DNA from: Diploscapter coronatus
Lineage: Eukaryota; Nematoda; Chromadorea; Rhabditida; Rhabditidae
Length of the DNA: 64,000 bases
Direction: 5' to 3'
Assembly: GCA_964036155.1 (NCBI GenBank)
Contig: OZ038422.1
Span: 37,347,201 to 37,411,200 of the forward strand
Shown here one piece after another: positions 1-48,411 of this stretch (the first letter of the stretch is position 1; each line of letters begins with the position of its first letter). The notes beneath the pieces are model-generated. The model was not told where the DNA came from and ran no database searches. It saw only the letters and a list, made by a program, of their open reading frames with translations. Both the position numbers and the translations under genes were made by a program.

Positions 1-2163
1 AGTCGAAAGAAATGAACGATGGAGGTGAAAAGCTGAGAATCGAGAATCTCGAAAACTATGAATAGCAGCTGGGTGACAGACATGAATTGAATTGATTGAA
101 TCGACAGAGACAGAGGGCAGTGCCGCAGGGTAGATCACATTGCAAACGGCAGAGGGTCGACTGTAAATGAGAAGGGAGGAGAAGGACAACAGAACTATAG
201 GGCATGAAGACAAAGTTACTGATGAATTGTGTTGATTGAGAATCGAGAATGGAAAGGGGATGGCAAGGCGATTGCACTTTGATTGAAGGAGAAAGAGAGC
301 AGAGAATGGTCGAATGGATGATAGAGTGACAATGTCACTGACAATGACAACGCAATCAGAAATCGTCGACAGAAAATATTTGCAGAGAGGAATGCAGCGA
401 TATGAAATGTAAAGATACGCACTTTTTCGACTGGCTACTTGGTCAACACAGGTTCAGAAAAACGAGATATAGAAATTCACAGGTTAGAAGCAGAAGAAAC
501 AATGAAAAGTTGAAACAAGGGGATTAGGCATTGACGATGGGGTCGATTGGCGATACGCGTGACTGAAGCATGATGAAAGGGGAGGTGAAGTAAAGGTAAT
601 GAAGATGGAAATGCAGAAACCAACACATTCAGGGTCACTTCTCACTGCTAATTCACTCTACACCATATAACTTTATTTCCATTTCGACTTGATCCAATTT
701 TCACTTCATTTCGATCGACGCACTGCGAACCTCGCGAAGATAAGGCATCTACAGGCAGAGGCAGAATGGAAACGCACAAAAACAGTAGCTGCGGATGGGA
801 AGGAGGTAGATGATCGGGAAGAAATGAAGGAAAGACAGGACAAAAACTCTGCCGATTTGTGCAAAAAAGCGGACAAGACAAGTGAAAGTCGCCAGGCAGA
901 AAATGCATAATCGAATGAGGAATTCGATCCTGAAAATGACCCAAATGGGCAGCTGCATGGTTGGGAATCGAGTCGAAGAGTGGAAGAATGTATACAACTC
1001 CGCATTCTTCCGGTCACTCGCAGCTCTCTCTCACTCTCTTTCTCTCTCTTCATCTCTTCACTCTTCCACATTTTTCTGTATTTTCAGTATTTTTCTTCGC
1101 ATTTTGAGTCCATTCATTGCTGTGGCTGTTTCTGCCTTAGGCTCAATGCAATACAATACTGCGCTGAATGTGAGAGAAAACGGGGAATGTGAATGTGCGA
1201 GGCGAGGCAACAAGACAGCAACCGGACGAGAAAGGAAAAAAGGACTGCAAGAAGGGAGAGGAGGGAGCTCTACAGACTCACAGCCTCACTGCTGGACTGG
1301 AGACACTGGTTTGTAGATGCAAAGAATATTCACAGACAAGGAGGGGAAACATCAAAACAGAAGCGGAAAAAATCAAGCAGAGAGGCAAATTGTTGTGTGT
1401 TCAAGTTGAGGGCCTAGCTGTGCAAATCTGACTGAGGCGGCGGGCAGAAAAGAGGAAAGTGCCTGGAGGCTCTTAGACTGAAGATGATGACGACGAAGGG
1501 ATGCAGAAAATGAAGATGAGTCAAGAGAGGATTGTCGAGAGAACAGAGAGGAGAGGAATGATTCAGAGGAATGGACTGTGTGAGCCTTCCCTCCCTTCTT
1601 ATGATATTCCAGTTACAAATTGCAGAACAAGTCCCTCATCTCGAAGATATTCATTCTTGATAAGCAAATAATCTTCTGATCAATAATGATTCAATGAAAA
1701 AGCGAAAGGGGATTACTAGCAAAGAGTCGAGGAATCCCGAGGGTAGATTTACTTGACACAATACATACAGCTGGATTAGATTGGATTACTTTTGCTCTTG
1801 ACAAGTCAATCTGGATATGCATTCTAGAATACAGAACATGTACAATGCAATGAATGAATGAAATAATTGATATCTAACAGGAAATGGGTTATTTTGACAA
1901 GTACAAATATGTTAGAGGTGCAGTTTCGGTTGAAATGAAATTTGAAAACTGCATAGTTGTCAACATCCGTAGCTGATATTTTTACGTAATGCGCATCAAC
2001 AAAATTGTTATAATTTGGCCCAAAATATTTTCTTATGAAAAAGTAAGTGAAATCAAATTAAAATTGCAGTGCGTTTTGACAAAAGTTATATGCGTGAAGA
2101 TCAACTTTGCTACTGATAAAATTGAAAAGTTTCTGTATAGAAAAAGCTAAACAGTTACAGTGG

Positions 2164-14117: not shown

Positions 14118-18688
<4,571 letters not shown>

Positions 18689-34183: not shown

Positions 34184-37100
34184 ATGCTGGACAGAGATAA
34201 AGAAACCGTGCCTCTGCTTGAAAGCGATGTGCTGGAAGATGAGAGGAAGGACGATACAATCATTGAAATGTAAATTTTATAGCTCTAAAATATTGAAATA
34301 GAAACAAGGAATATCGTTATACCAGAACTGTCTAATCTAACCTATTCTAACTACTAGTATGTATTTGAAGAGAAAGCGAAGATATTTTGTTATTGTCATT
34401 TTTTAAATATCGATTTGTAGAAAAGCAAATTTTAGGCCAGAAGTCGCGTTTTCTCATGGAAAATTTATGGAAAACCACAAGCTCCTCATGTTTGAATCGA
34501 CCAAAATCAGTCTGCTCAGACGATTGGAATGGAAGAGATTGTTAGTCAATTTTATTGATACATACATGGATTTAGGATTACAGTAGATCTAGAAAGAATC
34601 TGACTGGTTGAAAAATAAGGAAATATTTTGAGTGGTGTGACATACTGAATATAATTTAAATTTATGAGAAAATATCTACAAAATCAGTTGTGATTGGAAA
34701 AAAACATTGCAAAATAATCATTGTTGCAACCAGCAACTTGATAATTGCTTGTCACTTATAATTTTATATTCATCAATCGATAATCAACAACTTCAATTGC
34801 CATCTTTGGGATATTGTCGAACTTTCTATGATCCGATAGTGTCGCTGATGTTAGTTGATTTTGTGAAATGCTAATTTGCATTGACGTCCATAGATATTTT
34901 TACCTCTCTAGGATTCGTTTCATGAGCGATTATGTTTCTCTAGCTTATTCACTATTTCTCATAAACTTATAGTTTGTATCCCAATTTTTCCAGGAGGGAT
35001 ATTGCTAGAACCGTCGTTCGTGCGTCAATCACTGCATAATTTGCATAATCATCTCCTCTCCAACGCTAAAAATTCCCTTCAAACTTTGTCCCTGGTACAA
35101 ATCGATACCAACATTAGGTTTTGAGCATGTGCAAATTTGAAATCGCTTTCAGCATATTCAAATGAAATCGTTACTCAGGCAACAGTAACTAACAATAAGA
35201 ATTAGCAGATATTCACAAATATAGATACATTCTCAAACACCATGCAAATTACAATAATGATCAATGTCTTTTATGCTTGAAAACTAAAAAATCGCTAGAT
35301 TTTGAGGTTACAAATTTCATTATTGCTTTGAGTTTCAAATTTCGTTTTTATTTTTCAATCTTTTTTAGCAGGATGCCATATTTGGACACTCCATCTGTAG
35401 ATCCACTGGAAATATCTGAATGTGAAAGCGGATCATCAGGTCAAATTAGTGTCAGCGGGTGAGAAAAATAATGAAAAGAATACCTGAATACAAGAGTCTT
35501 TATGAAGATTAAATAAATTTTGAAATCTATTTCTCGATATTCATTCAGAATTAAATCGATTACAGAAATGATCATTCGTATGTGAGAAAGCAATGCGGAC
35601 AAAATCCTCGTCGGAAAATATTCATCTTGTAAGTATTGCATTTCTTTTTATCCATTCGATTAAAACTTAATGAATTTCCCCTTTCAATAAATCAATAGTT
35701 CTGATTTTTGTTACAAAAATCCCAGAAGAGAAAACGTTCGATCAAACAGTCGTTCGCGCGTCAGAAAACTAAAGACCAATTGAATTTGCATAAATGATGT
35801 TTCTCCCAAAGTTATTGTAATCACCGAAAGTTGAAGATAGCACAGGGTTCGACATAAAAATGCTGACAAACTTTATCAATGGAGGCGGAGTCTGCGCTCC
35901 TTTGATTCGATATAAAATGAGCCCAAATTTTAATTGGACAAGCGAGCCCTTTTCCCTGCGAAGATGGTCCATTTTATCTTTGAAATAATTTCGTGATTTA
36001 CCCATCGTGCTACTTGAATTATCCAATCAGCTAACGTTTCTTATCTCCAACCTACCAGCATCCAATCTCTTTGTTCTTGAATACTCTTTGGTGAATCGCC
36101 GAGGGCTAAAGACCTTGCTACCTCCAATTTGAGCTCGATCTTTTGATTCCCCATTCATCATCCTATCAGAGCTTTCCCCTCTTATCAAGGCACTCCGAAA
36201 TCCACATTCATTTGTTTTTGCTCCAGGTTTAGACAAATATTGTAATCAAAATCGTTTCCATGCAGATTCTGATTTTGACAACAGCCTATCAGTTAGTGAT
36301 AAGTCTTTTTAGTCTATCAATATATTTGCAGAACTAGCCCGTATTGTTTCAAAACAAAATTATTTCATAAAAAAATCTATCAGTCATAAATGAAACAATT
36401 TCAGAATGAAAATCATTCTCTTAATCGGTATTTTTGGAGTTCTGATGTCACTTGTGTTTGGTGGGCTCATTGAGAGATCTGGAAATCTCAAAAAGCGACA
36501 AGTTCCTTCCAAAACAGCTCCTATGCCTACCTCTCCTAATAAAGTTGATTTGCTGCTATCACAGGTTTTACACTCAAATTTTTAAAATCATTCTTTTAAT
36601 TAATCAAATTCTAGATCAATGAGGTCAAGGAAGCTATGGGAAAGGTTTTTACATTAAAATTTTTAAAATCATTCTTTTTAATTAATCAAATTCTAGATCA
36701 ATGAGGTCAAGGAAGCTATAGAAAAGGTTTTTACACTCAAATTTTAAAAATTATTCTTTTAATTAATCAAATTCTAGATCAATGGAAATATTATGCAACA
36801 GTTAAAATCAAATCCTATTCCTGCTCAAGTCCCTGGCATATCTAACCAGACGAAAGCACAGGTTTTTACACTAAACTTTTTTAAATCTTTCTTTTAATTA
36901 ATAAAATTTTAGGTCTTTATTTATCCAATAGGTAAAAATTATAATCATTATCATAAGACCCCACAAACTAATTGAATTCTAAAGCGCAGTGTACAACTTT
37001 GTGCCAGGAGAATTGCACAATATACGATTATTCGTTACTCCTTTCATTTCTTTATTTTTCCCAATTTTCGTTGAATTTTTGCAATTATTTTTTAATCAAT

Positions 37101-38826
37101 TTGGCCTACAGGTGGATACTCGATATATTTGAACAATCCATACCTCACAACGTTACATGGCTCCCCTTTTCACTTTTCCCCTTTTTCTCTGCGTCTCTCG
37201 GCGAGAGAGATAAAATTCGTCATAACAGTTCGTCTTGGCAGGCGCCCCTTTAGTCTCCATTTTTGACACCCCTCCATTTTCATGCAATATAAATTATACG
37301 CCTTTGCAGCTATGCCTCAATACAGGCGAGAGATTTTCTGTTTTCTTTTTCAGAGGTGAGGAAAAGGAAGGAGGAAAGCGAGAGGGATGCCACGCCGTCT
37401 AGGATATTTTCTTCACGATATGCGTATTTTGGAAGTAGAAAGCATAGTAATTGGCCTAAATTGACCTATAGCGAGGATTACGGTTGTTCCCTCGTCGGGA
37501 GAAAAGAAAAAAAGAAAAGTCTGCGTCTCTTCATTCTGCGCGCTATCTCCTTTCTTATTTCCTCTTCATCCCGCGCGCTATCTCCTTTCTTATTTCCTCC
37601 TCATTTCGCGCACTATTTTGTTTTCTTATTTTCTCTTCATTCCGCGCGCTATCTCCTTTCTTATTTTCTCCTCATTTTGCGCACTATTTTGTTTTCTTAT
37701 TTTCTCTTCATTTCGCGCGTTATCTCCTTTCTTATTTCCTCCCCACTTTGTGCGTTATTTTTTCGCTGCTCGCTCGTTGTTTATACCGTAAAAAGGGAGC
37801 CATATAACGATGTGTACCTGTTTTTTTTGCGAAAATATGCCCAGTAATGCTGAATTGTTCTAACCAAATAAAATTTCATGTTTCTTTCATTTCGTGATCC
37901 AAAGTGGCTGGATGATCTAAAGTTCTAGTTTTTACTTGAAATTACATCCAAAATGAAGTAAAAATATCAACAACATCAAGAGAACTTAAAAATAAGGAAA
38001 TGAATGGAATGACAACTAATTGTACATTGTGCAGTTCGCCTGACGAAAATTTTTGGAAATTCATTTCGATTTCGATTTTGAAAATTGTTAGCGGTCAATT
38101 TCTATTTCAATGTTGATTCCGAATTTTCAAAGCTTAATATTTTTATTCCAAAATAGAACTCATTCGATTCGAAATTTTACACTGCTCACAAATATGCTAC
38201 CGTTTTATCAATTAGAGTTACCTTATCACTGATAAAGAATGATAAAATCACTAAAATTGACCTGTAAGCAGATCTGATTGTCATTCGTTGTCAGAAATTT
38301 ACATTGATAACGAATGTTTTAATATTTTAGTTGATTTAATGGTCTTATCATTGATAGTCATAGAGAATAATTTCAAATTTAATTAAAAAATCATCAGTAC
38401 AAACGATAAACTGTCTTTGAATTCTAATTTTAATTTCAGCAACTGGAGCTGGATGGGGTAAGCAATTTCATTTGAAACTAAAATTTGCAAATTATGTTGA
38501 GAAATTTCTAAAAGAAGAAATTCGAATTCAATTTCAATTAGAATTTGAATTTGATTTACAACTTTTGAGAGCGATGAGCCAATTTATTCAGTCGATCGAC
38601 TTGAATCCGATTCAACCCGATCGGGTCGGGTCGATTAAAAGTAGTAGTCTGTTTCGGAAATTTCAAAACTTAAGCTTCATGCATCCTTGGTGCGTATAAT
38701 GTCAAAGGACGCACTGTACGCCAAGTGCTATCGTTCATGCTTAGGAAATGTGAGACTGATGAGAAGTGCGTTCCATTATCGAATTCATTCGTTTTTCCCT
38801 AAATTGCTGATAAAATGAAGCTGATA

Positions 38827-38857
<31 letters not shown>

Positions 38858-41800
38858 GACAGACATGTCGAAGAGAATGGATTAGATCTTTCCTAATGAT
38901 TACATTTACTACCTAACTATGTATAAGCTCACTTCATTTTATCACCAAATTGGGCAAGAATGAATTAGAAATGAAGCTCACTTCTCATCAGCCTCACATT
39001 TTTAAGCATGAACGATAATAGCCTTCTCAGACATTCACTCTTAATAGACAGACAAACTCAAGAAGAAAATCATGCTTTTAGATCCTATTTTTCATCTTAT
39101 ATAATTTATCAATTTCAGATATCTGGCATCGGGATAGTAAGTCTTTTACCTGATCAGAGATATTATTCGTTTCATACAAGTGGGCAGTTGAGTCTATCTC
39201 GCTGTGCAATGCACACCTCCCCTTCTGCCACTATCTTACGACTATTCCCTTTCTCCCCGCTGGAAAGATAATTGTCGTAAGGTAGAGTGCAAAGGGAAAA
39301 TGCCTGCAAACTGCCCATTCGTGTAAAACTAATATACAGGGTGTCCCGAATGAGAGCCGAATTTGCTGATAAAATGAAGCCGAGAACTTCGAAAACAAAA
39401 TTTGACAAACATGTCGAAGAGGATGAACCAGACCTTTCTAATGATTACATTTTCTACCTAACTGTGCATAAGCTCACTTCATTTTGTCACCAATTTGGGC
39501 AAGAATGAATTAGCAATGGAGAGCACTTCTCATCAGCCTCACATTTTCAAGCATGAACGATGATAGCCTTCTCAGACATTCACTCTTAATAAACAGACAA
39601 ACTCGAGAAGAAAATTATGCTTTTAGATCCTATTTTCATCTTATATAATTTATCAATTTCAGGTGTCGCAATAGCTGGTCCTAGTAAGTCTTTTTACCTT
39701 ATCAGAGATATTATTTGCTTCATACGAGTGGGCAGTTGAGTCTATCTTGCTGTGCAATGCACACCTCCCCTTCTGTCACTATCTTACGACTATTCCCTCT
39801 TTCTCCCCGCTGGAAAGAGAATTGTCGTAAGGTAGAGTGCAAAGGGGAAAATGCTTGCCAACTGCCTATTTGTATTAAACTAATATACAGGGTGTCCCGA
39901 GTGAGAGCCGAATTTGCTGATAAAATGAAGCCGAGAACTTCGAAAACAAAATTTGACAAACATGTCGAAGAGGATGAACCAGACCTTTCTAATGATTACA
40001 TTTTCTACCTAACTGTGCATAAGCTCACTTCATTTTGTCACCAATTTGGGCAAGAATGAATTAGCAATGGAGAGCACTTCTCATCAGCCTCACATTTTCA
40101 AGCATGAACGATGATAGCCTTCTCAGACATTCACTCTTAATAAACAGACAAACTCGAGAAGAAAATTATGCTTTTAGATCCTATTTTCATCTTATATAAT
40201 TTATCAATTTCAGGAGCCCTTGGCCTTGCTATACGTAAGTATTTTTGCCTGATCAGAGATATTATTCGTTTCATACAAGTGGGCAGTTGAGTCTATCTCG
40301 CTGTGCAATGCACACCTCCCCTTCTGTCACTATCTTACGACTATTCCCTCTTTCTCCCCGCTGGAAAGAGAATTGTCGTAAGGTAGAGTGCAAAGGGGAA
40401 AATGCTTGCCAACTGCCTATTCGTATTAAACTAATATACAGGGTGTCCCGAGTGAGAGCCGAATTTGCTGATAAAATGAAGCCGAGAACTTCGAAAACAA
40501 AATTTGACAAACATGTCGAAGAGGATGAACCAGACCTTTCTAATGATTACATTTTCTACCTAACTGTGCATAAGCTCACTTCATTTTGTCACCAATTTGG
40601 GCAAGAATGAATTAGCAATGGAGAGCACTTCTCATCAGCCTCACATTTTCAAGCATGAACGATGATAGCCTTCTCAGACATTCACTCTTAATAAACAGAC
40701 AAACTCAAGAAGAAATTATGCTTTTAGATCCTATTTTTGTTCTTATATAATTTATCAATTTCAGTTACCCCGAAGGGAGTTTTTGGTAAGTCTTTTTACC
40801 TGATCATAGATATTATTTGCTTCATACGAGTGGGCAGTTGAGTCTATTTCACTGTGCAATACACATCTTCCCTTCTGCCACTACCTTACGACTATTCCAT
40901 TTCTCTCCGCTGGAAAGAGAATTGTCGTAAGGTAGAGTGCAAAGGGAAAAATGCTAGCTTCATTTTATCACCAAATTGGGTAGGAATGAATCAATTAGCA
41001 ATGGAGCGCACTTCTCATCAGCCTCACATTTTTCAAGCATGAACGATAATAGCCTTCTCAGACATTCACTCTTAATAGACAGTCAAACTCAAGAAGAAAT
41101 TATGCTTTTAGATCCTATTTTTGTTCTTATATAATTTATCAATTTCAGGAGGCCTTAAAAAAGTTGCTGGTAAGTCTTTTTGCCTGATCAGAGATATTAT
41201 TTGTTTCAAACGGATGGGCAGTTGAGTCTATCTCGCTGTGCAATACACATCTTCCCTTCTGCCACTACCTTGCGACTATTTCCTCTTTCTCTTCACTGGA
41301 AAGAGAATTGTCGTAAGGTAGAGTGCAAAGGGAAAAATGCTAGCTTCATTTTATCACCAAATTAGGCAAGAATGAATTAGCAATGGAGCGCACTTCTCAT
41401 CAGCCTCATAGTTTTCAAGCATGAGCTATAATAGCCTTCTCAGACATTCACTCTTAAAACAAATATATAAATTTAAAAAATCATCGTGAATGCTAAATTT
41501 ATAATGACTAACGTTTCGTCCGAATATAGATGTAAATAAAAATTTCGGGAAGAAGATTTGAAAGAATTTTGCAAGACGTGCCCTACGGACAGTCCTACTT
41601 ATATTTATAGTAGATATCATTGCCAATTTTTCGGTGATTCTACAGCGAGAGACAAAAGAAGAGTAAAATTAACCTTAATATATATTTGTTTTCAAATATT
41701 CTGAAAAGTGAGGTGCCTTTCGGTCCTGCATTGGATCGAAGGTAAAGTTTGACGCGCAGTCAGACGAGGGTTCGCTTTCGAAATTCGAATGATGCATTTG

Positions 41801-44800
41801 TCAGCCTTTTCTGTGGGTTGTTTTTTTGGGTCTTCCCGATTTTTTCTTAACAGTACGTGGTCTACCTGATTTCACAATAGCAGTCCATCCACGAACCGTT
41901 GTGTACGGAAGTCCAAAATCTGCTGCAGCTTTGCGAATCGACTTACTTTTGGATACAGCAGCAATGCATTTTTCTTTCAGTTCCTGAGCGTGGTATTTTC
42001 GAGAGTTTATCTGAAAAAGCTTGCAAAAATGTAATAAAACATTTGTGGAATAAATTTAAAAATAGGGTCGAAAAATCATGTTTTAGTCTATCTACTGATA
42101 ATATCACAGAAAAAAATGTTTAAAATTTGTGGAACACTAAAATTCGGATAAAAGTTCATTAAAAATAGCCAAAAATTATCAATTTTTCTGAAAATTAGGG
42201 TTGAGAAATAGTAGCCCTCCCTCTATTTGAAGTCCCTCTAGAGGAGTATTGAAAATAGAAACCCCTGGGCTTCTATTAGAGACATTACGGTAAATCAAAT
42301 GCCAATAATTTCAGGTTGCCGAAGATGTCGTGCAACGGCGCTTACAATTTCATCTTCTGCACCGAATTATACACTCTATGCTGGAGGAACTGAGATCGAT
42401 GCTACAGGGTGCAACACAATCACACTCACTTGTACGGGACCAGGCGCAGGATTAATAGTAATACCTACAAAATTATTATATTATAAACAAGCTAGTGTTT
42501 TTCTAAGCCAAAATATTCTTCAGATCAGTAATTTCATACTGCCACTCGATTCCCTTCATTAACTAGCGCCTCCTTCGCGCGAGCAAATTGCAAAAATCAG
42601 TGGGCGGAGCAAAACGTCCATACCGTATGTGTTTTTAGGTCAGTCCCCTGTTCTTTTCCTCTGACTTCCTTTTTCCGGCTAAATATGCGCGATGGGTTAG
42701 TACGCCTATGTTAGAGCAAGAGAGGGGGATAAAAAGTAGCTGCAGAGAGATAAAAACGTCACATACTATTTCGCTTTCTCTAGAGCAAACCCGCCACGGA
42801 TAACTTTTTATTTTTCAGCAATTATAACGATAAAAGGAGCGTGTCTTTTCTTCGTTAAAGAAGGGAATCGTGTGACTGCATTGTATAAGAATAATTTTAA
42901 ATGTCCAATTATGGAGAACTATCATTTTTAACCTCACAAAGGCTATTTGGAAGTCAAAGGCGCTCAAGAGCAAGCTATGAGAAATAATACATAGTAAAGA
43001 GGATATTGGATGATAAGATTTCTTTCCTCATACTATTTCGCATTCCTTGAGAGCTTGAGGGCTCATGGTTTTCAAGTTGTTCCTCGAAAATACAGCTTTT
43101 CAGTTTTTATATTTACAAAACATGTGTTTGAATGATGTCGACAATTTAGTTCTTTGGTACCAACGGCGAATTTCTAGGAGGTATATTTGGTGGAGCTACA
43201 TATGTTGTACCTCTCAGATGCGATTCTTCGGGAAAGTGGGAAGTCACTGTTAGATACCCAACTTTAAAAGCTATCAACCCCACGAAGGCAGAGTGCACTG
43301 GCTCAATGGTAAAAATATTTGAAAATAATTGAACCTCCTCAGCGTTCAAGCAGCGTATCCATATGGATTCATGTGGACCCACAGTCGCGAATTGCGGATC
43401 CATATGGGAGTAATTTGCGGATTCGCAGTTTTTGTGGATGCAAGTGGACCAATATGGATCCATGTGGATTCACAATTTGCAAATTTGTGGACCCGTGTGG
43501 ATCCACATTCATTCATATCGACCCACAGCGCTGCGGATCCGCAAATTACCCCACATGGATACGCTGCTTGAACGCTGAGTCCAAACTTAAAACAGAGTTT
43601 CCGTAATTCTCGGCGATCTCAAAGAAGGGGTCGGACCAGAGACTTCAAATTCGTTTCTGAAAGTATATTTGAGCGTTTCCTACCTATATTCGACCTGGAG
43701 AACACGGTTTTGGGGCTTTTTCCTGAAGTTTTCAAGTCCAGGTGCGGATACCGGGGTCCGAGAGTCAAATTTTAAAAGTCATCCCGATACCCCCGAAACC
43801 TATATCAGATTGTTCAGTTCGATGAGCTGAGTCTAATGACGCGAACATTTTTCAGATCTGACCTTTCTATCGCAAGTTACGGCTAAAAACGGATCGAAGT
43901 TTTCCATGAAATCTTGTAGAGCTCTTCAAGTTGATCAACTTTTGTTCCAAAACTTATTCTAGAATGTGCATACACAAAGAGCTATGAATTTTTGAAATTT
44001 TCTTTCATGAAAATCACCCAATTTTATGCATTCGGCAGTTTATTTGACCCCAGGAATCATTTTTTCTTCGAAAAAGTGACATATTTTTATTCAGAATTAA
44101 ATTCTCTACAAAATAAGATCATTTCCGGCCGGTTCCCCAAGACATCGATGAGGTCAAAATCGCGAAAAACCGTCGCCGGTCAGGGTCGAATTTTCGGAAA
44201 TTAATTTTTTGGCGGGAAGTTGTTGATCACAGCAGGTGGTCGTAGTTACATTATTTGTAGAGTTTTTCATGGGTTATTTAATACTGAAAACCCCGTTCGA
44301 TTTAGTTCAAAAATAAGAAAGTTATGAATTTTTTCCTGAGGTCGGGTCTATCTAAACTTCAAGCTACCGTAATCCTGTATACGATCATTTTTTTTTTAAT
44401 GAAAAACGAATAGCACCACGAGACTCAGCGTGCAAAGCTGCATCTATGGTGTGACAATCAGCCAAATTGATGGACCCCTATTTATACCGACTTTGGTCTT
44501 TTACTCACGTTCACTCTTAAAAATGCAACCTGATCGAAGACTATCCGCTACTGTACACAAATCAAATTGTACCTTGATGCGCAAAATATTTCTAACAATA
44601 AAATAATTGTACATTTAGGGGAAGGACCCTGGTATTACGATTCCTACGACCACTACAGCCACTATGGCCACTACAACCGCTATGACCACTACGACCGCGC
44701 CATCATCTTGCACAGTACCAGACAAACAAATTATCTATTCTGACTATAGAAACGCATCGAATGTATCGTATGATTATTTGACACCGTGTAAAAATGGCTC

Positions 44801-45424
44801 GACAACATGGTAAGAGAAAAATCGGAAATTCATTTCTAATTAAAGAATTATTTCAGCATCGGTATGTTGCGCAAGCAGTGCTATCAGGAGACGAGTGATA
44901 GAGCCTGCCCTAATTCACTTCTATGCCTGAATAGCAGTAAGTAATATAACCAAGTTTATGCAGAAGTATCGAGTTTTCAATCGACTGGGCATTTGCATCA
45001 GGCAGAGAGTTCAACAGGCATTTTTGGTATTTCTTAGATATCATTCAAAAAACGTATTTATTTATAACTTACTCTAGGCGAAGCAAGTGCGACGTCAGTT
45101 GAAAATATGATATTTCAAAAAAATTAATGCACTAATATTTTAGCCATAAACGTGATAACGGTCTTCGATAGTCCTGCCGATAAGTGTCCGGGCGCTGGAG
45201 ATGAAACACTCCATGTGTATCCGTTGGGAGTAACATCGAAGGGCGACAACGCTGAAGCTATCAACTGCTCGTGCTACAGTGTCATTAATGCCGTGGCATT
45301 CAATTTCTATGTCAACAATGCCGCCACTCCACCTCAATATAAGATTGCCAAGAATACTGCAACTCCACAGCCCGCTGCTCCATTCGTTTTCACATTTGCT
45401 TTCTGTGCACAAGCGTTTGCTTGA
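34184..45424 (+). CDS. micro-exon gene: predicted type II membrane protein with C6 domain
   Basis: Twenty exons join in phase to exactly 546 codons: 34184-34269, 34436-34540, 35372-35458, 35566-35628, 36405-36564, 36615-36644, 36697-36726, 36778-36861, 36913-36931, 38440-38457, 39119-39136, 39663-39683, 40214-40234, 40765-40785, 41149-41169, 42315-42457, 43150-43308, 44619-44809, 44857-44936 and 45144-45424. Residues 1-108 are a cytosolic tail with an acidic dileucine signal (KETVPLLES). One helix spans about 109-133 (LMKIILLIGIFGVLMSLVFG), followed by LKKRQ. Two 10-residue exons are near-copies (INEVKEAMGK, INEVKEAIEK). Residues 222-262 come from 18- and 21-base phase-1 micro-exons. Residues 263-358 hold six cysteines in C6-domain spacing (CRRC, TLTC, LRCDSSGKW, AEC). 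A Thr-rich linker and a Cys-containing C-terminal domain end at TGA; AATAAA lies at 45,446. The 19-base exon and the 18-base exon at 39,119 are the least certain. The function is unknown. A shorter secreted form starting at 36,406 is possible. Confidence 0.75.
34985..35380 (+). repeat. intron segment duplicated at 33.1 kb
   Basis: This is the second copy of the repeat described at 33,101-33,500. Here it fills most of intron 2 and runs into exon 3. Its boundary with exon 3 carries a tandem acceptor (TAGCAG), so exon 3 could start three bases apart without changing frame. Confidence 0.65.
36565..36777 (+). repeat. tandemly duplicated 30-base exon with its intron
   Basis: Two units of about 82 bases each hold an intron of about 50 bases (starting GTTTTTACA and ending AATTCTAG) and the exon ATCAATGAGGTCAAGGAAGC plus ten more bases. 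The two exons differ at two positions. The next exon (36,778) begins ATCAATG and is preceded by the same intron, so it shares the ancestor and then diverges. Confidence 0.8.
37139..37820. repeat. terminal-inverted-repeat element in intron 9
   Basis: TACCTCACAACGTTACATGG followed by CTCCCCTTTT (37,141-37,170) is the inverse of AAAAGGGAGCCATATAACG and its continuation (37,790-37,820). The element is about 680 bases long, has no convincing transposase frame, and contains a short tandem array. It sits in the long intron between the 19-base exon and the first phase-1 micro-exon. Confidence 0.6.
37530..37765 (+). repeat. tandem repeat, about 35-base unit, about 7 copies
   Basis: Successive units begin with variants of CGCGCGCTATCTCC or CGCGCACTATTTTG and continue TTTCTTATTT(C/T)CTC(T/C)TCAT. 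Two unit types alternate in the second half. The open frames across it are by-products of the repeat, not a protein gene. Confidence 0.8.
38730..39017. repeat. foldback (MITE-like) element
   Basis: TATCGTTCATGCTTA at 38,729 is the exact inverse of TAAGCATGAACGATA at 39,003-39,017. The arms continue inwards (GATGAGAAGTGCG with CACTTCTCATC; TTGCTGATAAAATGAAG with CTTCATTTTATCA). An A run sits near the middle. Only the right half of this element appears in the later repeat units. Confidence 0.7.
38936..41457 (+). repeat. tandem array of intron plus micro-exon units
   Basis: About five units of about 360-550 bases, each running from the right arm of a foldback element through AATTTATCAATTTCAG, a micro-exon, GTAAGTCTTTTT, a hairpin region (CTTACGAC ... 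GTCGTAAG) and, in three units, CAGGGTGTCCC and a 52-codon open frame. By eye the introns at 39,684-40,213 and 40,235-40,764 differ at about a dozen positions. The last unit loses similarity at about 41,457. The exons between the introns do not share this identity. Confidence 0.85.
41740..42012 (-). pseudogene. broken Tc1-like transposase N-terminus
   Basis: Read on the minus strand, 42,012-41,801 encodes a helix-turn-helix region (HAQELKEKCIAAVSKSKSIR, then FGLPYTTVRGW) and a GRP-type linker (SGRPRTV, SGRPKKT) before a stop. In a shifted frame ISKANPRLTARQT continues, which is the usual next segment in Tc1/mariner-type transposases. No DDE catalytic domain remains. The relic lies antisense in the intron before the C6 exons. 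Confidence 0.7.
43338..43579. repeat. terminal-inverted-repeat element with GGATCCATATGG motifs
   Basis: CTCAGCGTTCAAGCAGCG at 43,338 is the exact inverse of CGCTGCTTGAACGCTGAG ending at 43,579. The interior carries repeated, mutually inverted GGATCCATATGG and TGTGGACCC motifs. It lies in the intron after the second C6 exon and has no coding content. Confidence 0.7.
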
Positions 45425-45752
45425 GTGTTTTTTGGTGTTTTGAGAAATAAATAATTCATTGTTGAATGTGAATGAACTTTCAAAAAGTTTAATTTTGAGA
45501 TATTCTTATCAATGAATCAAAAATGAAGATGGCTTTGTACTTTAAAACCATGTCTCAAGAAAAGTGCAGGCTTGAATTTCCCCAATAGAATTTGAAAACT
45601 CATGGCATGCATGTCACGAATGCTTTAATTTTCTTTATAGGATTAGTAGGCTTTCATATATGTAGTTCGGTGAATAACAACTGCTCTCTATTTTCAGAGA
45701 CTCTTTATTGACAGCTATGATGGAGATGTGTCCTGTTCGTCTGTCTGTTCAT
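45425..45752. other. convergent 3' spacer
   Basis: This stretch separates the stop codons of the micro-exon gene (+) and sds-22 (-). It has AATAAA at 45,446-45,451 for the plus gene. No further feature is seen. Confidence 0.6.
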
Positions 45753-48411
45753 CTACTGCTCATCCTGTTTGTCTGTCTTCCACGGTCTCACCCCCACACT
45801 CTCGTCTCTCACGAACTGCGCGTCCAGACGGCGCACTTGCGGCAGCAGGCGGATTGCCTTCGCTCTGTAACAATCATGCATCGTTGAATGAATGAATCGT
45901 CTGTTTTGAAAGTGACCGGGTCAATTTCATTCTTCTCATTGAATTGAGAAACGAATCATTGAACTTTCCTGTACTTTTTTAAAACCCCTTCTCACCCACC
46001 TGTAAGTCTCATTATTGGTGGAGAATGGATTTTCATCCAAGTAGACGAACGACAAACGAGGCAGATGCTCCAGCTCGTCGAACACAGACCAGTCGACCAG
46101 CTACAAACCATTCATTCACTTTCATTACTTGCAAGCATTAGCTAAGATTTTGTGGATAAAATGAAAACTAGTGTTGCATTTTCTAATCCTCAAATGTGCA
46201 TTTCGTCCTTTGCAAATTAATATTGTAGAGAACCGACTTGCCTTGTTGCTCTTCGCCCAGAAGTCCGTCAGATTCCGCAGATGGCGGATGTCTTTCACAG
46301 ACTCGACGCGGTTCTGATTCAGATCCAGGATCTGAATATGGATGCTAAATCTTATTTCTCATTTCTTATTTTTATCTTGAGAAAACATGGTAATTCGGAA
46401 ATCTCACAACTTGAAGAAATAGTATTATCAAAAGTTAGAGTTACCCCACCATCTCCTCACCTTATTTACTGTTTCGTCAGGTTGTGGATTGCGAGATTTC
46501 AGTATGTCCGAAAATATCGTTCCATTTCATTAAAAATAGAAATAGGATATATAGGAAGATAGAAAGGGTAGCGTGAAACGTCAAAATATGAAATGTGACG
46601 AAATAGTATGAGAATTTCTAAATCTTCTATTCAAATTTCCCCATTCTTGCTTTGATATCATGAAATTATTATGAAAGGAGAAATGATGAAAGACTAATTA
46701 TGGTTTAGTAGTGAAATTATTACAAACCTCGAGTTTCGGATTGTGCGGGAAGCCTTTGACGTGCTGGATGCCGTTCTGCGATAAGTAGATTTCCCTCAGA
46801 TTATGCAGTCTTTCAAGTCCCTGCAATTTATTTCTCGTTTTGTCTCCCTCAATTCCTCTATAACAGACCTGAATGTGGATGATGGCGTTGGCGGGCAGAC
46901 TGAGCACTTCCAGCCTGTGCAGATGCGAGACGTTCTCGATGTTGCGGATCTGGTTCGCGCCAAGGAACAGTCTGATTTGAGTTGTTTTCTTGGAATGGAA
47001 TATTTTCGTAAAGATCAACTTCTCGTAGTCTATTTTTGTGCATAGAAAATGTGGATGGTAAAATTATGTCAAAATATGAAGAAAGATTATACTATTTTTG
47101 TCGATCAAAAGTTCTGACCACTCTTAATTCAATCCTCACCTCTTCAAACTGACGTTGTTGTCCAGATTCTCAATCTTCTTGATTCTGTTGTCGCCCAGCT
47201 CCAAGTACTCCAAGTTGACGAGCTGAAAAATATATATGATCTTGATTGTAGTCACTTCTTCAATCAATAACATACCTTGTCGAGCCCTTCAATCCTGGTG
47301 ATTTTGTTGTGGACGAAGTAGAGCGTCTTCAGATTGACCAGCTGGTCGAGTCCCTCGATGACCGCAATTCGATTGTAGGACAGGTCCAGAGTGACCAGAT
47401 GCGTCAAGGCGCTCAGGTTTTCGATCTTCTCGATCTGAAAGGGAATTCGTCGTGAATTATTGAATTTTCTTCAATAGTCAGATCTCTTTCATGATTGACA
47501 TGAAACGTAATTCTCAAGATTGCACAAATCATATTTTTCAATAAAGTCTAGCTTTATATTCCTCCGTGAACTTTGTGCATCCATGCAAATAAAGTGATAA
47601 TAGAAATGTTGTGACTTGACTCGAACTCAACAGAAACGAACAGAGCAAAACAACACAAGTAATTTCAAATCTTAATTCTACTTTTTCTACACTTTCACAT
47701 TCCCATCCCATTTGTGTACAAATATATCATGCGCAAAGTAGGTGTATCGAAGTTGATCTTCACGTCCCCTCACCTGATTGTCATATAGATCGAGTTCAGT
47801 GAGCGTGTTGGCAGTGCAATCGAGACTCTCGATCTTCTTGAGCAGATTCCATCGGAGACAGAGCTTCTCGACCTGCGTGAACGTCTCCAGGCCGTGGATG
47901 GTCTTCATTCTGTGTCGAGTCAAGTCCACTTCCTTTGCATCCTCGGGGATCTGCAATTTATCGTTTTGTTGTTGTTCTTCTTCTATTCATCAATGAATAA
48001 ATGCAGTGAGTTATTTTATGTTTCAGTCATTAGTGAAATTTACAAATTCACTAAAAAAAAGATTGCCACTTCAAGCATTCGTCTACGTTGAACTCTGCTT
48101 ACATGCACGTAGACTATCTCAAATTCGACAGGCTTCTGTCCTGCAGTCTGCTCGATCGCCGTTGCACACGATGATGACACACTGTCCGTGTCGGAGTCCG
48201 AGCTCGTCTCCTAAAAGTCCATTTTTCAGGTAACTTTCATGAATGAAGATAGGAAGTAACAGTATTCTTCACTGCTTCTGTTTCTGCTTTCATACTGTGT
48301 ACCTTCTCCATCTTTCTCGCTTCTCACCTCATCAGCATTCTCCTCTTTCTGCCCATCTTCCTCCCTGTCTTCCAGCAATTCAGCAGCTGCCTCTTTCACT
48401 TCTGCCGACAT
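45753..48411 (-). CDS. sds-22: SDS-22, leucine-rich regulatory subunit of protein phosphatase 1
   Basis: Ten exons encode about 369 residues, close to the 360 of human PPP1R7; start at 48,411, TAG at 45,753-45,755. An acidic N-terminus (MSAEVKEAAAELLEDREEDG, then a Ser/Asp-rich exon) precedes tandem SDS22-type leucine-rich repeats of about 22 residues. Examples are LDLSYNRIAVIEGLDQLVNL, LYFVHNKITRIEGLDKLVNL, LELGDNRIKKIENLDN and LFLGANQIRNIENVSHLHRL. The LRR cap follows (LSFVYLDENPFSTN ... LLPQVRRLDAQFVRDES). The protein binds and matures PP1 catalytic subunits in nucleus and cytosol. The donor after FWAKSNK is GC (AAG|GCAAGT). It is the last of three same-strand genes. Identification is firm. 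Confidence 0.95.

Follow-up and report, generated by a model that had tools for sequence, protein, structure and literature searches.

A family of nematode genes with symmetric phase-1 micro-exons set in near-identical introns in Diploscapter coronatus

The window is a stretch of 64,000 nucleotides of Diploscapter coronatus DNA (GenBank assembly GCA_964036155.1, contig OZ038422.1, positions 37,347,201 to 37,411,200 of the forward strand). It contains a gene with a row of very small exons (micro-exons), which is one member of a gene family that is likely to code for secreted or membrane-anchored proteins. By their frame statistics, the micro-exon arrays are coding, and the reading frame is kept across the family. 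A sequence-only reading of the window had proposed a micro-exon gene at this place. The feature is real, with corrections to the gene model, and the family statistics lift it above chance. That reading had overlooked three things: the other genes of the family, the adapter exon that keeps the frame, and the fact that near-identical introns surround exons that are unrelated.

Micro-exons in one reading frame across a gene family

The gene model lies on the + strand, from the ATG at 34184 to the end of the stop codon at 45424. It contains 19 exons, whose 512 codons, stop included, give 511 amino acids; 20 exons and 546 codons had been proposed at first. Five chance 102-base AG..GT candidates could be inserted in frame as a twentieth exon; none was supported, and the intended one is not identifiable. 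All nine of the tiny exons first listed (one of 19 bases, two of 18, four of 21, and two of 30) were recovered with AG/GT borders. They follow each other in the order 30, 30, 19, 18, 18, 21, 21, 21, and 21 bases, and the joined chain is free of stops. The six 18/21-base exons were correctly described as symmetric: each has phase 1 at both ends and a length that is a multiple of three.

The assembly has two large contigs, C1 and C2 (87.7 and 82.0 Mb), and a third that comes to 13 kb by subtraction; the window is on C1, and loci are named here by their Mb positions. A search with one intron unit against this assembly gave at least 128 matching pieces, on both large contigs. A pattern built only from intron ends, with the exon length allowed to vary from 9 to 39 bases, was then scanned across 170 Mb. 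It identified 29 intron-micro-exon-intron units, and 28 of the 29 exon lengths are multiples of three by coordinates (letters were available for 25 rows; four lengths came from coordinates). A control pattern gave 0 units on both strands.

Both intron ends were recognised in 44 fully read units. The set excludes ends that were truncated or had a donor only, as well as acceptor-side ends where the exon that follows is longer or could not be assigned. The lengths of 43 of them are multiples of three (12, 15, 18, 21, 24, 27, 33, 36, 45, and 51 bases), and 21 are exactly 21 bases long. Stops were found in none of these 43 units in phase 1, and in 16 and 21 in the other two frames. The 44 units include 40 distinct ones and so do not count as independent, and the borders in 12 of the 44 were shifted by 1-3 bases or set by eye to the AG/GT consensus, the BLAST ends being ragged; the pattern scan needs no such adjustment. 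One extra 45-base unit at C1 18.84 Mb, with no phase-1 stop by reading, stands outside all counts.

The adapter exon, at the position of exon 8, follows a different rule. Its length is 1 modulo 3 in all 11 copies in the loci compared (19, 22, 28, 28, 28, 34, 37, 40, 46, 52, and 52 bases), because exon 8 must shift phase 0 to phase 1; all copies are without stop in phase 0. Individual micro-exons may be skipped in frame, giving isoforms. The nine symmetric exons (5, 6, 7, and 9-14) may thus allow up to 512 in-frame combinations, if each can be skipped independently.

Exons 2-4 and 17-19 are under purifying selection overall. Their pooled pN/pS (the ratio of nonsynonymous to synonymous differences per site) was 0.12 (exon 19), 0.13 (exon 18), 0.38 (tail of exon 17), and 0.43-0.47 (exons 2-4); single pairs for exons 2, 3, and 17 exceed 1, on few changes. 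The pooled pS of the constant exons is about 0.06-0.21 per synonymous site, and the non-coding stretches of the family loci are about 70-95% identical to the window. In selected loci, tblastn showed a single further copy of exon 1 (36.77 Mb) and four further copies of exons 2-3 (22.36 and 22.87 Mb, and C2 55.03 and 72.04 Mb). Exon 19 has four genome matches including its own, all on C1, and a cysteine-containing C-terminal region is common to four loci.

The 431-amino-acid form gave no match at E 1e-3 or better among the 7993 candidates of the protein database that shared most words with it and were scored, a selection that may have been filled up by Thr-rich words. For the C-terminal domain, the search gave one 90-amino-acid relative, 92% identical, on a 521-base contig of the European Nucleotide Archive (ENA); this contig proves no splicing, since the relative covers exon 19 only. 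No solved structure matched the C-terminal domain at E 1.

A likely explanation is a family of secreted or anchored proteins with a variable micro-exon core, in which the exons turn over quickly and form an outward-facing helix. In several loci, a signal-like exon with a dibasic site is followed by the phase 0 to 1 adapter exon, and then by the array of micro-exons, which are 12-51 bases long and symmetric in phase 1. Each of them would add a module of 4-17 residues, most often 7, and leave the frame unchanged; the modules tend towards an amphipathic helix or small cysteine loops. The micro-exons would be included in the mRNA, with single ones skipped to give isoforms. Their sequences would change quickly and in frame under diversifying selection, whereas the introns would evolve like ordinary neutral DNA or be homogenised. 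The variable helix might face outwards and make contact with, for example, microbes or membranes outside the worm, although this function is a guess.

The start of the product, its modules, and the C6-like exons

The product may be either membrane-anchored, with a start in exon 1, or secreted, with a start in exon 4. The membrane protein of the sequence-only reading is thus one of two readings; an exon-4 start would give a secreted product. Exon 4 has its own ATG directly behind a TTTCAG acceptor, with a hydrophobic stretch at the start and then a dibasic KR. This signal-peptide-like exon was identified by reading of the letters at nine loci. All nine show CAG, one base, ATG, a hydrophobic stretch, and then KR or KRE/KRQ at the place of exon 4, and in four of them the hydrophobic stretch is different. 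Window 35028-35750, with exons 2-3, has no counterpart in the alignments to the loci at 36.77, 80.66, and 81.19 Mb, yet an exon 4-like exon is retained. Because of these features, the product may well start at exon 4 and be secreted. In the whole genome, ten matches to exon 4 reached E 0.001, one of them being exon 4 itself; three are partial, and one of those has a stop.

On balance, it is somewhat probable that exons 1-3 form a separate gene or an alternative transcript, and that the micro-exon protein starts at the exon 4 ATG, possibly after trans-splicing, and is purely secreted. More weight was given to this start because four further loci show the ATG, the hydrophobic stretch, and KR. 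SL1-like RNA genes in the genome are in line with it: matches were found at 21 places, none of which reaches the curated score (best E 5.4e-7), and at no place in 14 control genomes. They also point to a nematode as the host. However, exons 2 and 3 are present upstream with AG/GT borders in four other loci, and exon 1 is retained at 36.77 Mb. Exons 2 and 3 are both symmetric, so that an exon 3 to 4 join and an exon 1 to 4 join are both in frame.

The peptides of the array have a regular pattern. The hydrophobic moment of the joined array peptides peaks at 100 degrees among 13 angles (p 0.001, 7 arrays). The helix periodicity gave p 0.0035 for the 6 arrays that remain without the array of three identical exons, and p 0.0004 in the register-coherent form (18 peptides). 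As predicted peptides, the seven-residue modules fit an amphipathic helix: averaged over the modules, positions 2, 3, 6, and 7 are hydrophobic, and positions 4 and 5 polar. Two closely spaced cysteines are encoded by several of the exons of 24 and 33 bases.

The gene had also been named for a C6 domain. Exons 15-16 do match Pfam C6 (PF01681) over profile positions 1-78 of 89, but weakly (E 2.9e-4, 21.7 bits), below the gathering cut-off of 27.9. At 36.77, 80.68, and 81.19 Mb the alignment jumps from window 42078 to 44517; therefore, these loci have no exons 15-16 between the array and exon 17, and exon 17 is read from phase 1. Their exon 17 acceptors (TTTAAG/GG, TTTAAG/GG, and TTTAG/CT, the slash marking the border) fit phase 1, whereas the window has a phase-0 acceptor (TTTAG/GGG) after its phase 1 to 0 C6 exon. 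The C6 piece looks like an optional cassette, because three paralogous arrays reach the C-terminal exons without it and with the required splice phase. The C6 match is thus not the defining part of the gene. In the 80.66-80.68 Mb stretch, C6-like exons lie at 80.6626-80.6633 Mb, about 14 kb ahead of the second array, in one gene or two. Elsewhere, a probably allelic pair of C6-domain genes (L039 and L040, at C1 50.94 Mb and C2 47.71 Mb) is over the Pfam cut-off and has Thr-rich stretches.

Variable exons between near-identical introns

Exons 10-14 are set in tandem units, and the exons between these near-identical introns look unlike one another. The three long array introns (526, 530, and 530 bases) have 11-14 pairwise differences in 525-529 aligned bases; the 363-base one has 24 in 356-358. 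The mean identity of the 21-base exons is 36% (25% when shuffled), whereas that of their 60-base flanks is 91-93%. How alike two exons are bears no relation to how alike their flanks are (r 0.09 for 946 pairs, with a mean flank identity of 0.90). In one pair of units the flanks are 99.3% identical and the exons 29%; elsewhere, identical exons have 95% identical flanks. The adapter exons are 47% identical by gapped alignment (shuffled 45%), and their flanks 87-88%. Tandem duplication alone is not the cause of this divergence, because the two 30-base exons (5 and 6) stay nearly identical within the same gene.

Several observations weigh against a core of fast-changing, selected micro-exons. One unit of the 44 is 34 bases long and has phase-1 stops; it was excluded from the stop count. 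The codon-position evidence is modest: exon identity at positions 1/2/3 is 0.289/0.358/0.430 (site permutation p 0.007), which hints modestly at diversifying selection, and without one conserved base it weakens to 0.289/0.358/0.386. Third positions are far more divergent than the introns, and point substitution under selection alone is insufficient. The exon pairs are mostly identical or unrelated, with few intermediate. The helix test joins the listed units only, and unrecognised exons in between would break it. By similarity, exons 2-4 were seen together with exons 17-19 in the window gene only; the stretches downstream of the arrays at 22.36, 22.87, 23.95, 55.04, and 72.04 Mb were left out of gene modelling.

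These observations leave some room for stable exons. Gene conversion and unequal exchange might homogenise the introns, while selection keeps exon copies that would otherwise be lost; the exons would then be old, and there would be no fast turnover. The scarcity of intermediate exon pairs, the identical exons with 95% flanks, and the few differences among the long array introns of the window (11-14 of about 527 bases) all agree with such homogenisation. The flanks are also slightly more alike within a locus than between loci (0.933 vs 0.907, for equal-length pairs with the exon-identical ones left out). However, the lone adapter exon is near the shuffled level despite its 87-88% identical flanks, while the constant exons have a pooled pS of about 0.06-0.21; conversion within the array gives no explanation for the adapter position. 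This account is considered rather doubtful.

A more tentative reading, and one we regard as unlikely, goes further than the likely explanation of a selected, variable core. Exchangeable helix modules would sit in a shared intron scaffold, and the exon content would be replaced from splice site to splice site. Such exon-confined protein diversification would exceed the neutral rate, synonymous positions included, by a process beyond point mutation, and splicing might add variety per worm. If true, the parthenogenetic Diploscapter would offer a parallel among nematodes to the systems that diversify antigens or receptors.

The repeated intron might itself be mobile. Introner-type mobile introns insert at arbitrary phase and split a continuous exon. 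Many insertions into one continuous coding stretch would cut it into small unrelated pieces between near-identical introns, as observed here, and part of the unit has inverted copies in the genome. However, random insertion would not give multiples of three in 28 of 29 units or phase-1 stops in 0 of 43, and the unit lengths and phases do not show the arbitrary placement of introners. Neither would 21 of 44 pieces be expected at exactly 21 bases, and the recurrence of identical exons along with their introns indicates unit duplication. No uninterrupted copy of the coding stretch turned up in the loci compared; no genome-wide search was aimed at one. A mobile origin is therefore very improbable. 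Scarcely credible is a non-coding intronic repeat with apparent micro-exons that are never used: the 34-base unit with stops would suit it, whereas selection on a reading frame is needed to account for the lengths and stops counted across the family, and for the exit phase that fits in three paralogues.

Related systems and features of the window

The closest known likeness is to the micro-exon genes (MEGs) of schistosomes, whose design had been recognised in the window gene from the start. Schistosome MEGs, according to the available text of the sources, have a coding region made mostly of very small symmetric exons and appear restricted to platyhelminths (PMC4350168); in SmVAL6, micro-exons are joined to larger exons for conserved motifs (PMC4015677, PMC4350168). 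The nematode gene shares with them, and especially with the composite SmVAL6, a row of short symmetric exons that could be skipped in frame; MEGs mostly have a signal peptide, and the nematode loci show a signal-like exon by reading. The array of symmetric phase-1 micro-exons thus bears out the likeness, coding by its frame statistics; however, the phylum is another, and micro-exons make up less than half of the coding sequence (in the short form, 199 bases out of 1293). The commonest exon length is 15 in MEGs (PMC10526429), compared with 21 bases in the nematode family. The near-identical intron units are unmentioned for MEGs in the text available. MEG-24 and MEG-27 are reported to bind liposomes, possibly via amphipathic helices (PMC10526429).

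The bicycle genes of aphids also consist of numerous small internal exons and code for rapidly evolving putative effectors. Almost all of these exons begin at codon position 2, which is also where the array exons begin. These are insect genes, with about 17 exons per gene on average and with CYC motifs, and no repeated intron unit is mentioned in the part of the source available (PMC9168663). In the window gene, 7 of the 17 internal exons (exons 9-15) start at codon position 2; the bicycle pattern holds within the array but not overall. In snake venom genes, accelerated segment switch in exons (ASSET) swaps short exon segments for unrelated ones between highly similar introns. However, all but one of the switches lie inside exons, off the intron-exon borders, whereas the nematode micro-exons differ from splice site to splice site; how the venom segments are replaced is not yet understood, according to the authors (PMC2711939, as far as its accessible text goes). 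Tiny exons are also known in a nematode, as the C. elegans microexons (27 nt or less) under PRP-40; these are described for the nervous system, and tandem arrays or hypervariable sequence are unmentioned in the consulted portion of that paper (PMC8378409).

That no such gene has been described in nematodes still holds by title or abstract start for the papers listed from the literature searched, which includes few subscription papers, so that a prior description is possible. Micro-exon families built in this way have been linked to the parasitic life of schistosomes; if the design arose a second time, in a probably free-living nematode, it would no longer be bound to the evasion of host immunity. 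The inverted pattern, in which the introns are near-identical and the exons unrelated, would also offer a clean system for asking how short coding segments get replaced. D. coronatus has been described with a 170 Mb diploid assembly and 2n = 2 (PMC5483258, in part). D. coronatus and D. pachys are listed as bacteriovores and as parthenogenetic, and D. pachys is reported to be without TTAGGC tracts, by the accessible text of PMC9071541. A search for (TTAGGC)4 in the 169.7 Mb assembly found none.

A second gene class (class B) has one micro-exon of 24-34 bases, most with two cysteines, inside the same intron unit as the array. Matches to the strict unit pattern are uneven, with 24 on C1, of which four are class B, and 5 on C2, every one of which is at a class B place; the units are looser in the class A loci of C2 (22.52, 55.04, and 72.04 Mb). 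The class B gene at C2 35.07 Mb lies about 2 kb from a copy of a leucine-rich repeat (LRR) gene, and the window on C1 has a class A gene at that place. In the allelic comparison of C2 34.50 Mb and 36.77 Mb, no alignment longer than 100 bases was obtained except in the flank with the LRR gene; a related gene begins at C2 34.50 Mb, since an adapter-type exon is also present there.

Table 1. Exons of the window gene, intron units of its array, and class B loci
Feature	Position	Strand	Phase	Remarks
Exon 1	34184..34269	+	0 to 2	MLDRDKETVPLL...; copy at 36.77 Mb paralogue (tblastn)
Exon 2	35369..35458	+	2-2	four other copies, pooled pN/pS 0.43
Exon 3	35566..35628	+	2-2	four other copies, pooled pN/pS 0.47
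Exon 4	36405..36564	+		ATG at 36406, hydrophobic signal/anchor stretch, then KKRQ; possible alternative start; counterpart in eight other loci
Exon 5	36615..36644	+	0-0	30 bases, INEVKEAMGK; tandem duplicate with exon 6
Exon 6	36697..36726	+	0-0	30 bases, INEVKEAIEK
Exon 7	36778..36861	+	0-0	84 bases
Exon 8 (adapter)	36913..36931	+	0 to 1	19 bases
Exon 9	38440..38457	+	1-1	18-base micro-exon; 18-base counterpart of different sequence in 22.36 Mb locus
Exon 10	39119..39136	+	1-1	18-base micro-exon; first within homogeneous intron array
Exon 11	39663..39683	+	1-1	21-base micro-exon
Exon 12	40214..40234	+	1-1	21-base micro-exon
Exon 13	40765..40785	+	1-1	21-base micro-exon
Exon 14	41149..41169	+	1-1	21-base micro-exon
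Tandem intron units of array	39137..41148	+		526, 530, 530, 363 bases
Exon 15	42315..42457	+	1 to 0	C6-like domain, first half
Exon 16	43150..43308	+	0-0	C6-like domain, second half
Exon 17	44619..44809	+	0 to 2	Thr-rich linker and start of C-terminal domain; phase-0 acceptor
Exon 18	44857..44936	+	2 to 1	pooled pN/pS 0.13
Exon 19	45144..45424	+		carries stop; protein 97.8% identical to each of three other genome copies
Class B loci	C1 22.361, 22.713, 22.873, 23.145 Mb; C2 21.075, 21.506, 21.937, 30.857, 35.070 Mb			4 of 9 by match or coordinates only

An Rfam scan of the window at the gathering threshold gave no match. The LRR gene of the window is on the minus strand at about 45665-48000, and its best relative is a Dirofilaria protein phosphatase 1 regulatory subunit; the protein database searched thus includes nematode proteins from NCBI. 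The LRR region has four long copies in the genome, two per large contig, one on each strand. At 15203-17027, also on the minus strand, Pfam matches show zinc knuckles and part of a DEAD-box helicase, and the open reading frames there contain FGG-rich stretches, as in a GLH/Vasa-like germline gene. Within intron 8, a tandem repeat of about 35 and 71 bases occupies 37526-37763. An apparent decayed Tc1/mariner-type transposase stretch was seen by eye on the minus strand at about 41700-42060. Intron 16 contains imperfect repeats and palindromes of a GGATCCACATGG-like word, also by eye, at about 43340-43580.

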